From NCBI GenBank assembly GCA_913056235.1, contig CAJXMW010000004.1, positions 186,001 to 250,000 on the forward strand: a stretch of DNA of 64,000 nucleotides, read 5' to 3'. The notes below the pieces were generated by a model. The model made no database searches, was not told where the DNA came from, and worked only from the letters and a program-made list of their open reading frames with translations. This stretch comes from an uncultured Fodinibius sp. Lineage in GTDB: Bacteria; Bacteroidota; Rhodothermia; Balneolales; Balneolaceae. Of this stretch, positions 17,973-62,549 are shown in pieces. Position numbers and translations under genes: made by a program. The stretch's first letter is position 1. Each line of letters opens with the position of its first letter.

Positions 17973-18292
17973 CGCGTTAATTCAGTTATTTTGATCAGTC
18001 GGAAATTAGGGGCAATGGCTCGTAATGTCAATGAAATTAAGGCAAGGAATATAGTATTTCTGCGACTGAAAACACATAAAATTGAGTACCCTTTCTTATT
18101 TAAACTGAGTTTAAACTCAGTGTTATCAGGTTGGAGGCCCGAATCTTAATTCTTAGTTGCACAGGGCTTAATATTCTTTCCCAAAACGTAATTATATTTA
18201 GCGTTTTAAAAGAGGGTGATTCGCTAAACCAAGGTATCAATACCACTAATAACAATTATGGGAAATGACCTTTCTGAACTGATCATCTCTTA
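17973..18292. other. 320-bp upstream region of the nuo operon
   Basis: No open frame here resembles a protein. The region contains the 18-bp palindrome at 18104-18121 and is AT-rich. I cannot point to a convincing promoter. The likely function is the nuoA leader/promoter. Confidence 0.5.
18104..18121. promoter_or_regulatory. 18-bp perfect palindrome upstream of nuoA (possible operator)
   Basis: ACTGAGTTTAAACTCAGT is its own reverse complement. It ends 132 bp upstream of the nuoA start codon on the - strand. No T-run follows on either side, so a protein-binding site is more likely than a terminator. The regulator is unknown. Confidence 0.45.
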
Positions 18293-59626: not shown

Positions 59627-61225
59627 TTAAACTTTCGGACCGGCTTTGATTAATTCTTGGCTCGCCTCTTCTTCGAATTGTTCAAAGTTTTCGGCAAACA
59701 TCGCAGCCAGCTTGTCTGCTTTCTGGTCATAAGCCTCTTTGTCGGCCCAGGTGTTGCGTGGAAACAGAATCTCGCTGGGCACATCATTCACTTCGGTGGG
59801 GATGGCCAACCCGAATACATCGTCAATTTTGAAGGTGGCATCGTCGAGATTACCCTCAAGGGCTTCGCTGAGCATCTGTCGCGTATGTCCCAGTTTCATG
59901 CGGTGGCCTGTACCATAAGGACCTCCGGTCCAGCCGGTGTTCAGCAGCCATACCGTGGAGTTGTGCTTGCGGATTTTGTCAGCCAGCAGTTCGGCGTACA
60001 CTGTGGGATGCAGCGGCATAAATGGAGCGCCAAAGCAAGCAGAAAAAGTCGCCTGCGGCTGGGTGACGCCACGCTCAGTGCCGGCCACCTTGGCTGTGTA
60101 TCCGCTGATAAAGTGGTACATCGCCTGCTCGGGGGTCAGCTTGGAAATGGGAGGGAGCACGCCAAAGGCATCACAGGTTAGGAAAATAACATTACTTGGA
60201 TGATTGCCCTGGCCAGATTCGGTTGCATTCGGGATATAACTAATGGGATACGAGCAGCGGGTGTTCTGGGTGTAGCTGGTATCGTCAAAATCCGGTTCGC
60301 GATTATCATAGAGAGGGACATTTTCCAGGATAGTACCCGGCATCTTCGTAGTCGCATAGATCAGGGGCTCACCCTCCTCAGACAGGTTGATGGTCTTGGC
60401 GTAGCATCCACCTTCAATGTTAAAGACGCCATCTTCACTCCATCCATGTTCGTCGTCGCCGATCAAGATGCGGTCTTGATCCGACGAGAGCGTGGTTTTA
60501 CCGGTGCCCGACAGGCCGAAGAATACGGCTGTATCACCCTCTTCGTCCATGTTGGCCGAACAGTGCATGGCCATCACATCCTGCTTGGGCAACAGATAGT
60601 TCATGACCGAAAAGATACCTTTCTTGACTTCTCCGGAATAAAGGGTACCACCAATCAGGATGATTTCTTTGTCAAAGTTTACGAGGACAAAGGCCTCGCT
60701 GCGAGTTCCATCGACTTCGGGATCCGCTTTAAAGTTCGGGGCCGCCAAGACCGTAAATTCCGGTTGGTGGTTGTTAAGTTTTTCCTTACTGGGACGAATG
60801 AACATATTGTGGGCAAAAAGCCCGTGATAGGCGGCCTCACTGACCACACGCACATTGAGCTGATAGTGTTCATCGGCACCGGCATAACAGTCTTTTACGT
60901 AGAGCTTTTTATCCTGCAAGTAATCGGTGACCTTGTCAAACAGATTGTCAAAAACTTCCTCGTCGGTGGGCTGGTTGATGTCGCCCCAGTCGATGTCGTC
61001 ATGAATCGACGGCTGATCGACAATAAACTTATCCTTTGGTGAACGGCCGGTGTATTGGCCGGTAAGTACGCGGATGGCGTAGTCTTTGGTTAAGGTCGCC
61101 TCTCCGTTTTTGATGGCTTCTTCGTAAAGTTCAGGTGGGGTAAGATTCCAAATAGTCTTATCGTTGTTCTCAAGCCCCAAATAGTCGAGTCCGATACTAC
61201 TGCGAGGATGTGAATGGTTACTCAT
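59627..61225 (-). CDS. pckA: Phosphoenolpyruvate carboxykinase (ATP)
   Basis: Gluconeogenic decarboxylation of oxaloacetate to PEP. 532 aa. The kinase-1a P-loop is FFGLSGTGKTTLS (about 236-248). Metal-site segment LIGDDEHGWSEDGVFNIEGG (about 256-275), the VLTGQYTGRSPKDKFIVD start motif and NTGWTGGPYGTGHRMKL near residue 430 are present. The 457-bp upstream gap carries a LacI-type operator. Confidence 0.96.
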   Translation of the reverse strand: MSNHSHPRSSIGLDYLGLENNDKTIWNLTPPELYEEAIKNGEATLTKDYAIRVLTGQYTGRSPKDKFIVDQPSIHDDIDWGDINQPTDEEVFDNLFDKVTDYLQDKKLYVKDCYAGADEHYQLNVRVVSEAAYHGLFAHNMFIRPSKEKLNNHQPEFTVLAAPNFKADPEVDGTRSEAFVLVNFDKEIILIGGTLYSGEVKKGIFSVMNYLLPKQDVMAMHCSANMDEEGDTAVFFGLSGTGKTTLSSDQDRILIGDDEHGWSEDGVFNIEGGCYAKTINLSEEGEPLIYATTKMPGTILENVPLYDNREPDFDDTSYTQNTRCSYPISYIPNATESGQGNHPSNVIFLTCDAFGVLPPISKLTPEQAMYHFISGYTAKVAGTERGVTQPQATFSACFGAPFMPLHPTVYAELLADKIRKHNSTVWLLNTGWTGGPYGTGHRMKLGHTRQMLSEALEGNLDDATFKIDDVFGLAIPTEVNDVPSEILFPRNTWADKEAYDQKADKLAAMFAENFEQFEEEASQELIKAGPKV

Positions 61226-61682
61226 CTGATCTTATTAGTCTTTTAGCGTTGTAAATTTTCAGCTCAAATAAAAATTGACAGTCAAAGAAGTGCTGTCGAG
61301 TGAGGCAGTAAGTATAAGGATTATTCGCTTGAATTTGTTGGGGAAATCATAATGCGAAGTGTTTGATGGGTTTAAGCGCTTTATAACTTAAATATTTAGT
61401 TATCTATACTTTTTAAATTAAAGTTTAGAAGGTTTTAGTGTTTAACTGCAATACTTTTTGAACAGTATATGTAACCGGTTACATAGGTTTAATGCGAAAC
61501 TTCAGTCTATGCGTGAAATCATTGTGCAGATGCATATAGACGAAGCTATCACTTATTTTTCGGTTGAATCCAATGTCGTTAGGCAAAAGCACTTTTGCTT
61601 TGTCCGGCTGCTTTTTTAATTCGTATTCTTTTGCTTTGTTACTTTACGTAAATTATGTGGCTCATTTTATATAATTAAACCT
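61226..61682. other. 457-bp divergent intergenic region pckA/amidase
   Basis: No coding frame. It holds the 18-bp operator at 61468-61485 and, nearer pckA, an ATAACT...AGTTAT near-palindrome around AAATATTT (61383-61403). Both divergent genes need promoters here; I cannot fix their positions. Confidence 0.5.
61468..61485. promoter_or_regulatory. LacI-type operator palindrome
   Basis: TATGTAACCGGTTACATA is a perfect 18-bp palindrome with the central CG and TGTAACC-GGTTACA arms typical of LacI/GntR(E. coli)-class repressor sites. It lies 243 bp upstream of the pckA start and 198 bp upstream of the amidase start. A LacI regulator gene is not in the window. Confidence 0.65.
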
Positions 61683-62549
61683 ATGCAAGAGAAGAAAGTA
61701 ACGCTTGGATTAGTTCAGCAAAGCTGCTCAGAAAATATCGATCAAAATATATCAAAGACCATTGCAGCTATAAGGCAGGCCTCAAATAATGGGGCAGAGG
61801 TTATTTTGCTGCAGGAGATGTTCAATACCACTTATTTTTGTCAGACGGTTGATGACCAATATTTCGACTGGGCACAGGCCATCCCCGGCTCCATTACGGA
61901 TGAGCTTACCAACTTGGCCAAAGAACTGGGCGTTGTAATTGTAGCACCTTTTTTTGAACGGCGCGCAGCCGGCGTATATCACAATTCGCTCGTGGTGATC
62001 GATGCCGATGGCACGCTGATGGGAAAATACCGAAAGAAGCATATTCCGGATGATCCCAGCTTTCATGAAAAATATTATTTTACGCCCGGTGAAGATAGTT
62101 ACCAGGTTTTTGATACCCAATTTGGCAAAATTGGTCCACTCATCTGCTGGGACCAGTGGTATCCGGAGGCGGCGCGTATAACGGCCTTGCAGGGAGCTGA
62201 ATTGCTGGTGTATCCAACAGCAATTGGCACGTTGCCGGATGAAGACGAACACCAGGGCCAGGAATTTTTAGATGCTTGGCAGACCATTCAGCGAAGCCAT
62301 GCGATTGCCAACGGATGCTTTGTGGCCAGCATCAATAGAGTGGGACAGGAAGGGGGGATTTCCTTTTGGGGGCATTCTTTTGTAGCCGGGCCATTTGGAC
62401 AGATGCAGGCAGAGGCGGGAACAGATGAACAGGTGCTGATCCAGGAAATTGATTTGTCAAAAATTGAAAAACAACGACAGGTCTGGCCTTTCTTTCGCGA
62501 TCGCCGCATCGATACCTACGAGCCTATTTTAGAGCGCTTTATTGACTAG
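61683..62549 (+). CDS. aguB: N-carbamoylputrescine amidase-type carbon-nitrogen hydrolase
   Basis: Nitrilase-superfamily amidase. 288 aa. The Glu-Lys-Cys triad is in EVILLQEMFNTTYF (Glu about 43-44), KYRKKHIPDDPSFHEKYYF (Lys about 116-121) and GPLICWDQWYPEAAR (Cys155). The combination FHEKYYFTPG and CWDQWYPEAAR is that of AguB, which hydrolyses N-carbamoylputrescine to putrescine. The substrate follows from similarity only. The agmatine deiminase AguA is not in the window. It overlaps the convergent TPR gene by 11 bp. Confidence 0.88.
   Translation: MQEKKVTLGLVQQSCSENIDQNISKTIAAIRQASNNGAEVILLQEMFNTTYFCQTVDDQYFDWAQAIPGSITDELTNLAKELGVVIVAPFFERRAAGVYHNSLVVIDADGTLMGKYRKKHIPDDPSFHEKYYFTPGEDSYQVFDTQFGKIGPLICWDQWYPEAARITALQGAELLVYPTAIGTLPDEDEHQGQEFLDAWQTIQRSHAIANGCFVASINRVGQEGGISFWGHSFVAGPFGQMQAEAGTDEQVLIQEIDLSKIEKQRQVWPFFRDRRIDTYEPILERFID

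Follow-up and report, generated by a model that had tools for sequence, protein, structure and literature searches.

A palindromic candidate operator for a LacI-family regulator between pckA and an aguB-like gene in an uncultured Fodinibius (Balneolaceae)

Operators of the cre-like kind bound by Cra/FruR and CcpA are CG-centered, and these proteins exert global LacI-family control of central carbon, a role that the regulator proposed below would share. LacI-type global carbon control has been described for Firmicutes and Proteobacteria (PMC4052901); searches of the open-licence literature listed no report of a comparable regulon from Balneolaceae. As reported in the same survey, 1173 of 1303 LacI regulators have an even palindromic operator with a central CG, and more than 75% of known sites lie 30-140 bp upstream of a start codon, with ∼7% beyond 200 bp, distances that are typical and not defining (PMC4052901). 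The system proposed here also resembles that of PckR, a LacI-family regulator that is mostly unlinked to its targets, has pckA among the most conserved of them, and is predicted to exert dual control of carbon flow. The survey reports PckR orthologs in Rhizobiales only, and the PckR targets are glycolysis, Entner-Doudoroff, and TCA genes, whereas those predicted here belong to fatty-acid, aromatic, and glycerol catabolism (PMC4052901).

The window analyzed here is a stretch of 64,000 nucleotides (C4:186001-250000) from the genome of an uncultured Fodinibius sp. (G000; nine contigs, 98.4% complete, 3.97 Mb). In this window, pckA (ATP-dependent phosphoenolpyruvate carboxykinase; 59627-61225, minus strand; NCBIfam TIGR00224, above cut-off) diverges from a gene for an AguB-like N-carbamoylputrescine amidase (61683-62549, plus strand), for which TIGR03381 is the best match at 322 bits, below the 410-bit cut-off. 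An agmatine-deiminase-like gene lies ∼3.5 kb past the amidase, outside the window. The 457-bp intergenic gap of the divergon houses TATGTAACCGGTTACATA (61468-61485, no strand; 14-bp core at 61470-61483), a predicted LacI-family operator. The sequence lies exactly at the coordinates given in an earlier note on this DNA, which had pointed to its central CG and LacI-class arms. All 18 bp are perfectly palindromic around a CG, the even symmetry and central dinucleotide of LacI operators. Its position falls outside the typical range of distances: the center is 251 bp from the pckA start codon and 206 bp from that of aguB. Perfect palindromes of at least 16 bp occur only twice in the window, at 61468 and at 18104, the latter also spanning 18 bp (ACTGAGTTTAAACTCAGT, 18104-18121). 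Scans of positions 61200-61720 for sigma-70 promoters and terminators found neither; the presumed leader of aguB contains a perfect inverted repeat, GCAAAAGCACTTTTGC (61583-61598), which the terminator scan did not call.

Given the dinucleotide composition of the window, the exact 14-bp core is expected 0.00011 times per window and 0.007 times in a genome of 3.97 Mb. The genome contains two exact copies, both of them intergenic (pckA/aguB and amtB). When one mismatch is permitted, there are 10 sites, against one for the backwards control and a Markov expectation of 0.35; at up to two mismatches no clear excess remains (26 sites vs. 21 in the control), and a scan of the window at three mismatches is too weak to judge (two matches vs. 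1.6 expected). Of the 10 sites, three are coding and seven intergenic, as assigned by frame reading rather than annotation (one of the intergenic sites overlaps the last bases of the upstream gene), compared with ∼0.03 intergenic sites expected. Across 12 loci selected around sites and LacI genes in this genome, intergenic DNA accounts for ∼8% of bases, and at 10% intergenic DNA the binomial probability of seven or more out of 10 is ∼1e-5. A palindrome that arose by chance and has no function would agree with its lack of conservation at pckA in relatives and with the vanished excess at two mismatches, but the exact copies and the intergenic excess make this reading very improbable. It is very probably a genuine regulatory site, recognized by a LacI-family protein whose gene lies in another part of the genome.

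The seven intergenic sites are located (i) in the pckA/aguB divergon, (ii) before the ammonium transporter gene amtB and a divergent FMN reductase gene, (iii) ahead of etfB, (iv) ahead of a Ser/Thr kinase gene, (v) at an amino-acid dehydrogenase stop codon, 84 bp before hslO, (vi) directly after fbp, and (vii) after a histidine kinase gene and 543 bp upstream of a metY-like gene, a SAM riboswitch lying between site and gene. The earlier note had proposed looking for further sites upstream of gluconeogenic or sugar-utilisation genes; the genome does contain other sites, beside gluconeogenic and catabolic genes. Sites (v) to (vii) closely follow stop codons without a clear promoter position, and they are not claimed as promoter operators. 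The palindromes at C2:477117, C1:982804, and C5:408018 are ∼25 bp or less from a stop codon (fbp, amino-acid dehydrogenase, histidine kinase), and two of these three precede a terminator-like hairpin, as judged by eye. A search for RNA elements at the palindromes (seven loci) found none there, the sole match being the SAM riboswitch near the metY-like gene (85 bits; locus positions 1796-1912, G000 C5). In two other genomes (G020 and G073), TGTAACCGTTTACA occurs ∼40-45 bp past a gene read as ispG. The amtB, etfB, hslO, and kinase sites were seen in this genome alone. Across the family, TGTAAMCGKTTACA is present in 12 of 92 genomes, with five copies in this genome and at most two in any other.

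A Pfam LacI search of the whole genome identified three genes, all above cut-off (C4:278035, C4:323676, and C1:1499723; hereafter LacI-A, LacI-C, and LacI-B), and none inside the window. The earlier claim of a LacI-class operator whose regulator acts in trans is well supported, with the binding itself predicted from sequence. LacI-A heads a maltose-type cluster of beta-phosphoglucomutase, GH65, alpha-amylase-like, and MFS genes; its boxes have a GCGC center, so that the second base from the middle stays G, and TGTAA arms. In this genome TGTAAGCCCTTACA precedes its own gene, and TGTAAGCGCTTWCA or TGTAAGCCCTTACA does so in 10 of 21 LacI-A-type loci. A TonB-receptor gene here is preceded by a doublet of TGAAAGCGCTTACA-type sites, and the same doublet is found in G002, G003, G005, and G009. 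Directly after the LacI-C gene lies TGTTATCGCTAACA, with near counterparts in G002, G003, and G005; LacI-C was ruled out as the palindrome binder, its local box being TGTTAnCGnTAACA.

LacI-B is an orphan gene (C1:1499708-1500718), flanked by the same two neighbors in G002, G003, G005, and G009 (sequences read by eye). No convincing palindrome was found upstream of it in 30 loci. The gene adjoining it in other family genomes (loci L209 and L216) is presumably purC, which would hint at an older purine link. Among known structures LacI-B is nearest in sequence to PurR, CcpA, and RbsR, the CcpA match (PDB 1zvv, E 2e-41) covering most of the protein. It nevertheless falls below the cut-off of all 17 matching NCBIfam models and does not qualify as CcpA, Cra, GalR, PurR, or RbsR by name, lying far below the cut-offs for CcpA (163 of 442 bits), Cra (85 of 385 bits), and GalR (172 of 557 bits). 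No PckR model is among these matches, and the likeness to PckR is one of description rather than of sequence comparison. The GalR and GalS proteins of E. coli have V15 A16 in the recognition helix, the same pair as LacI-B, and their operator consensus, GTGTAAnCGnTTACAC, would fit the palindrome; GalR/GalS differ in governing a local galactose regulon.

We consider it reasonably likely that the palindrome is an operator for LacI-B, belonging with a few other TGWAAMCGKTTWCA-like sites beside genes for gluconeogenesis and non-sugar catabolism. One line of evidence is the distribution of CCGG-class sites. A LacI-B counterpart (at least 45% identity) was found in 47 of 58 relatives' genomes and in five of the 12 genus genomes (G000, G002, G003, G005, and G009), and TGWAACCGGTTWCA is present in all five of the latter and in none of the seven genus genomes without LacI-B (a 5/5 vs. 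0/7 split not corrected for phylogeny), six of which carry other LacI genes. Because the motif patterns were widened during the search, this split is partly post hoc, and because a pckA protein tree of 22 genomes leaves the place of this genome within the genus unsettled, the association is uncorrected for descent; it may rest on a single evolutionary event. Another co-inherited regulator would produce an identical pattern. Further points weigh against the LacI-B reading: the missing box upstream of its own gene, the lack of a clear excess at two mismatches, the three sites that closely follow stop codons, the distance of the palindrome from both starts, the four sites seen in this genome alone, and, as described below, two glpK genes without a box in genomes that have LacI-B and T15 in place of V15 in the sister genomes. 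The earlier note had called for a match to a LacI regulator: the co-occurrence supplies one at the level of the genus, but it is we who infer that LacI-B is the binder, together with the sign of regulation and the signal, and the predicted operator is TGTAACCGGTTACA.

A scan of the genus with TGWAANCGNTTWCA returned 25 CCGG-core sites (3, 5, 8, 5, and 4 in G000, G002, G003, G005, and G009); the seven genomes without LacI-B yielded 20 sites, comprised of 16 GCGC, four other, and zero CCGG. With frames read by eye, 13 of the 25 are intergenic and 12 coding. The intergenic sites are found at pckA and amtB in G000, at hppD-paaA in G002, G003, and G005, in an acyl-CoA dehydrogenase/methylmalonyl-CoA mutase divergon in G002 and G003, at fadL in G002 and G005, at a susC gene after a FecR-like gene in G003, G005, and G009, and at glpK in G009. 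The hppD-paaA box also occurs in this genome with one mismatch, giving orthologous sites in four genomes, and a further box lies 14 bp before paaH here. The glpK box of this genome, TGTAAGCGTTTACA, stands at the place of TGTAACCGGTTTCA in G009, and is thus shared by two genomes. It is absent from all four same-type glpK genes (74-76% identical) in genomes without LacI-B; among the eight glpK promoters examined, the distant copies (62% identical) in G005 and G003, both of which have LacI-B, have no box. Conservation thus differs by target: hppD-paaA in four genomes, glpK in two, and the pckA palindrome in this genome only.

These target genes also bear on whether a regulator of another family (TetR, IclR, or GntR type) binds the palindrome, its likeness to a LacI operator being convergent. 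Fatty-acid and phenylacetate breakdown are often under TetR or GntR control in other bacteria, and a GntR/HutC-type gene adjoins glpK. A box of the GTnTAnAC GntR/HutC kind is, however, a separate element beside glpK in five of the eight promoters, three of them without a LacI-like box, and the TGTAA arms and central CG of the palindrome fit LacI rules. Furthermore, three of nine TGTAAMCGKTTACA matches outside the genus (among 92 family genomes) adjoin a LacI gene, in each case one encoding T15 A16. We regard a regulator of another family as unlikely. The HutC/GntR-type sequence beside glpK, GTATAGAC, is probably the site of the neighboring GntR-family gene.

The history of the pckA promoter was examined in the upstream regions of the best 30 of 45 pckA matches, the 45 coming from 39 of 58 genomes. 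The earlier note had named as refuting evidence a genome without other sites and a lack of conservation upstream of pckA in relatives, and the outcome is divided: the genome has other sites, and the exact palindrome is absent from the 29 other promoters among these 30, but a sister LacI box is conserved there. Its core, AAGCGCTT, occurs 89-166 bp before pckA in 17 of the 30 promoters (again the best 30 of 45 matches), compared with 0.24 expected, and in four of five named Balneolaceae records; in the nearest genomes its arms are TGTAA/TTACR. In this genome a second LacI-like box with degenerate arms, ATAAAGCGCTTAAA (61371-61384, minus strand), occupies the place of the relatives' TGTAAGCGCTTACG-type box, 99 bp from the palindrome. 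In the close relatives G007, G013, and G024, no LacI gene was found and no LacI box at pckA. The pattern does not follow a simple rule, however: G004 and G010 keep LacI-A and lack the pckA box; eight further genomes with LacI genes score without the core, G001 among them as a near miss (TGTAAGCGCATACC). Ten genomes carry a box in front of the LacI-A gene itself; nine of them have the AAGCGCTT core at pckA and the tenth is G001. The sister box in relatives probably belongs to LacI-A, and pckA appears to be a variable member of a LacI regulon in the family, probably that of LacI-A in the genus. Exact matches to the palindrome motif in relatives were also considered as conserved sites: there are three, in G002 and G003, and they were set aside because each encodes VTGY within a receptor-like gene.

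These results divide the earlier suggestion that the site couples pckA to a sugar signal. Such coupling is plausible in the genus, because the sister box probably belongs to the LacI-A of a maltose-type cluster, but in this genome the palindrome fits LacI-B, whose predicted targets are mostly in non-sugar catabolism. The contrary reading, in which LacI-A itself binds the palindrome as a replacement for its degraded GCGC box and pckA stays under one sugar-linked regulator, agrees with the LacI-A history of this promoter, with the TGTAA arms of LacI-A's own boxes, and with the A16 and R20 that it has in common with LacI-B. It is, in our view, improbable: the CCGG class is missing from all seven genus genomes without LacI-B, of which at least five (G001, G004, G006, G008, and G010) have LacI-A-like genes, LacI-A boxes retain the G next to the central pair, and, compared between this genome and G005, the DNA-binding domain of LacI-A shows 91% identity.

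The corresponding identity is 82% for LacI-C and 70% for LacI-B. Published covariation assigns the bases 5 and 4 from the operator center to residues 15 and 16, associates residue 20 with base 6, and reports that base 2 covaries with residues 55, 15, and 5 (PMC2978694). R20 and L54 are common to the three LacI proteins of this genome; the variable residues are Y5 I15 A16 in LacI-A, K5 A15 M16 in LacI-C, and R5 V15 A16 in LacI-B. In four sister genomes LacI-B has Y5 T15 A16, and in nine other family members examined it has Y5 I15 S16. LacI-B thus keeps A16, R20, and L54 but differs at residues 5 and 15, which are among the three positions linked to base 2. Divergence of this kind would be expected from a change of specificity, without proving one.

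A possible -7/-10 promoter element, TATACTTA (61309-61316, minus strand), has a match by eye at the corresponding place upstream of pckA in several relatives; counting from it, again by eye, the old box lies near -75 and the palindrome near -174. At ∼170 bp upstream of the likely pckA promoter, the palindrome may control pckA at long range, aguB, or the two genes together, aguB being an alternative target because more than 200 bp separate the site from either start codon. That the operator serves the amidase gene (an agmatine/putrescine route) and not pckA is a less likely reading, although one to be kept in mind, and it is compatible with LacI-B as the binder. The site is nearer to aguB, the other exact copy sits at the nitrogen gene amtB, and in G005, G009, and G004, where a different gene adjoins pckA, the CCGG site is absent there; against this, pckA fits the functional theme of the sites and is probably a LacI target in relatives, and the comparison of neighboring genes covers three relatives only.

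Under the LacI-B reading, the protein would bind as a dimer with its hinge leucine entering the central CG, and its predicted regulon includes pckA (gluconeogenesis), etfB (acyl-CoA oxidation), hppD-paaA and paaH (phenylacetate/tyrosine breakdown), glpK (glycerol), amtB, and others. Through it these genes would respond to a signal from central metabolism, in the manner of Cra, CcpA, or PckR in other phyla. For most of the remaining predicted sites the center lies 14-119 bp before the start codon (177-179 bp at hppD of relatives), distances which suit repression, and LacI-B would therefore act as a repressor there, presumably holding down most targets when better carbon is present. From an upstream box it could instead activate pckA, the action predicted for PckR (PMC4052901).

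More tentatively, control of pckA may have passed within the genus from a maltose-type LacI, whose GCGC box has decayed here, to an orphan LacI with changed DNA-reading residues (residue 5 from Y to R; residues 15/16 as I/S, T/A, and V/A in successive groups). In this scenario, which we consider less likely than not, the orphan would now govern gluconeogenesis and the catabolism of non-sugar carbon in this Balneolaceae clade as a master regulator of the Cra/CcpA kind, and it would have co-evolved with its operators over few species. At the pckA promoter of this clade, one LacI box is kept, lost, or replaced among close relatives, and a second LacI protein changes in the residues that read DNA. 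With box turnover at pckA and residue change both present, regulator-operator co-evolution is therefore testable in this clade.
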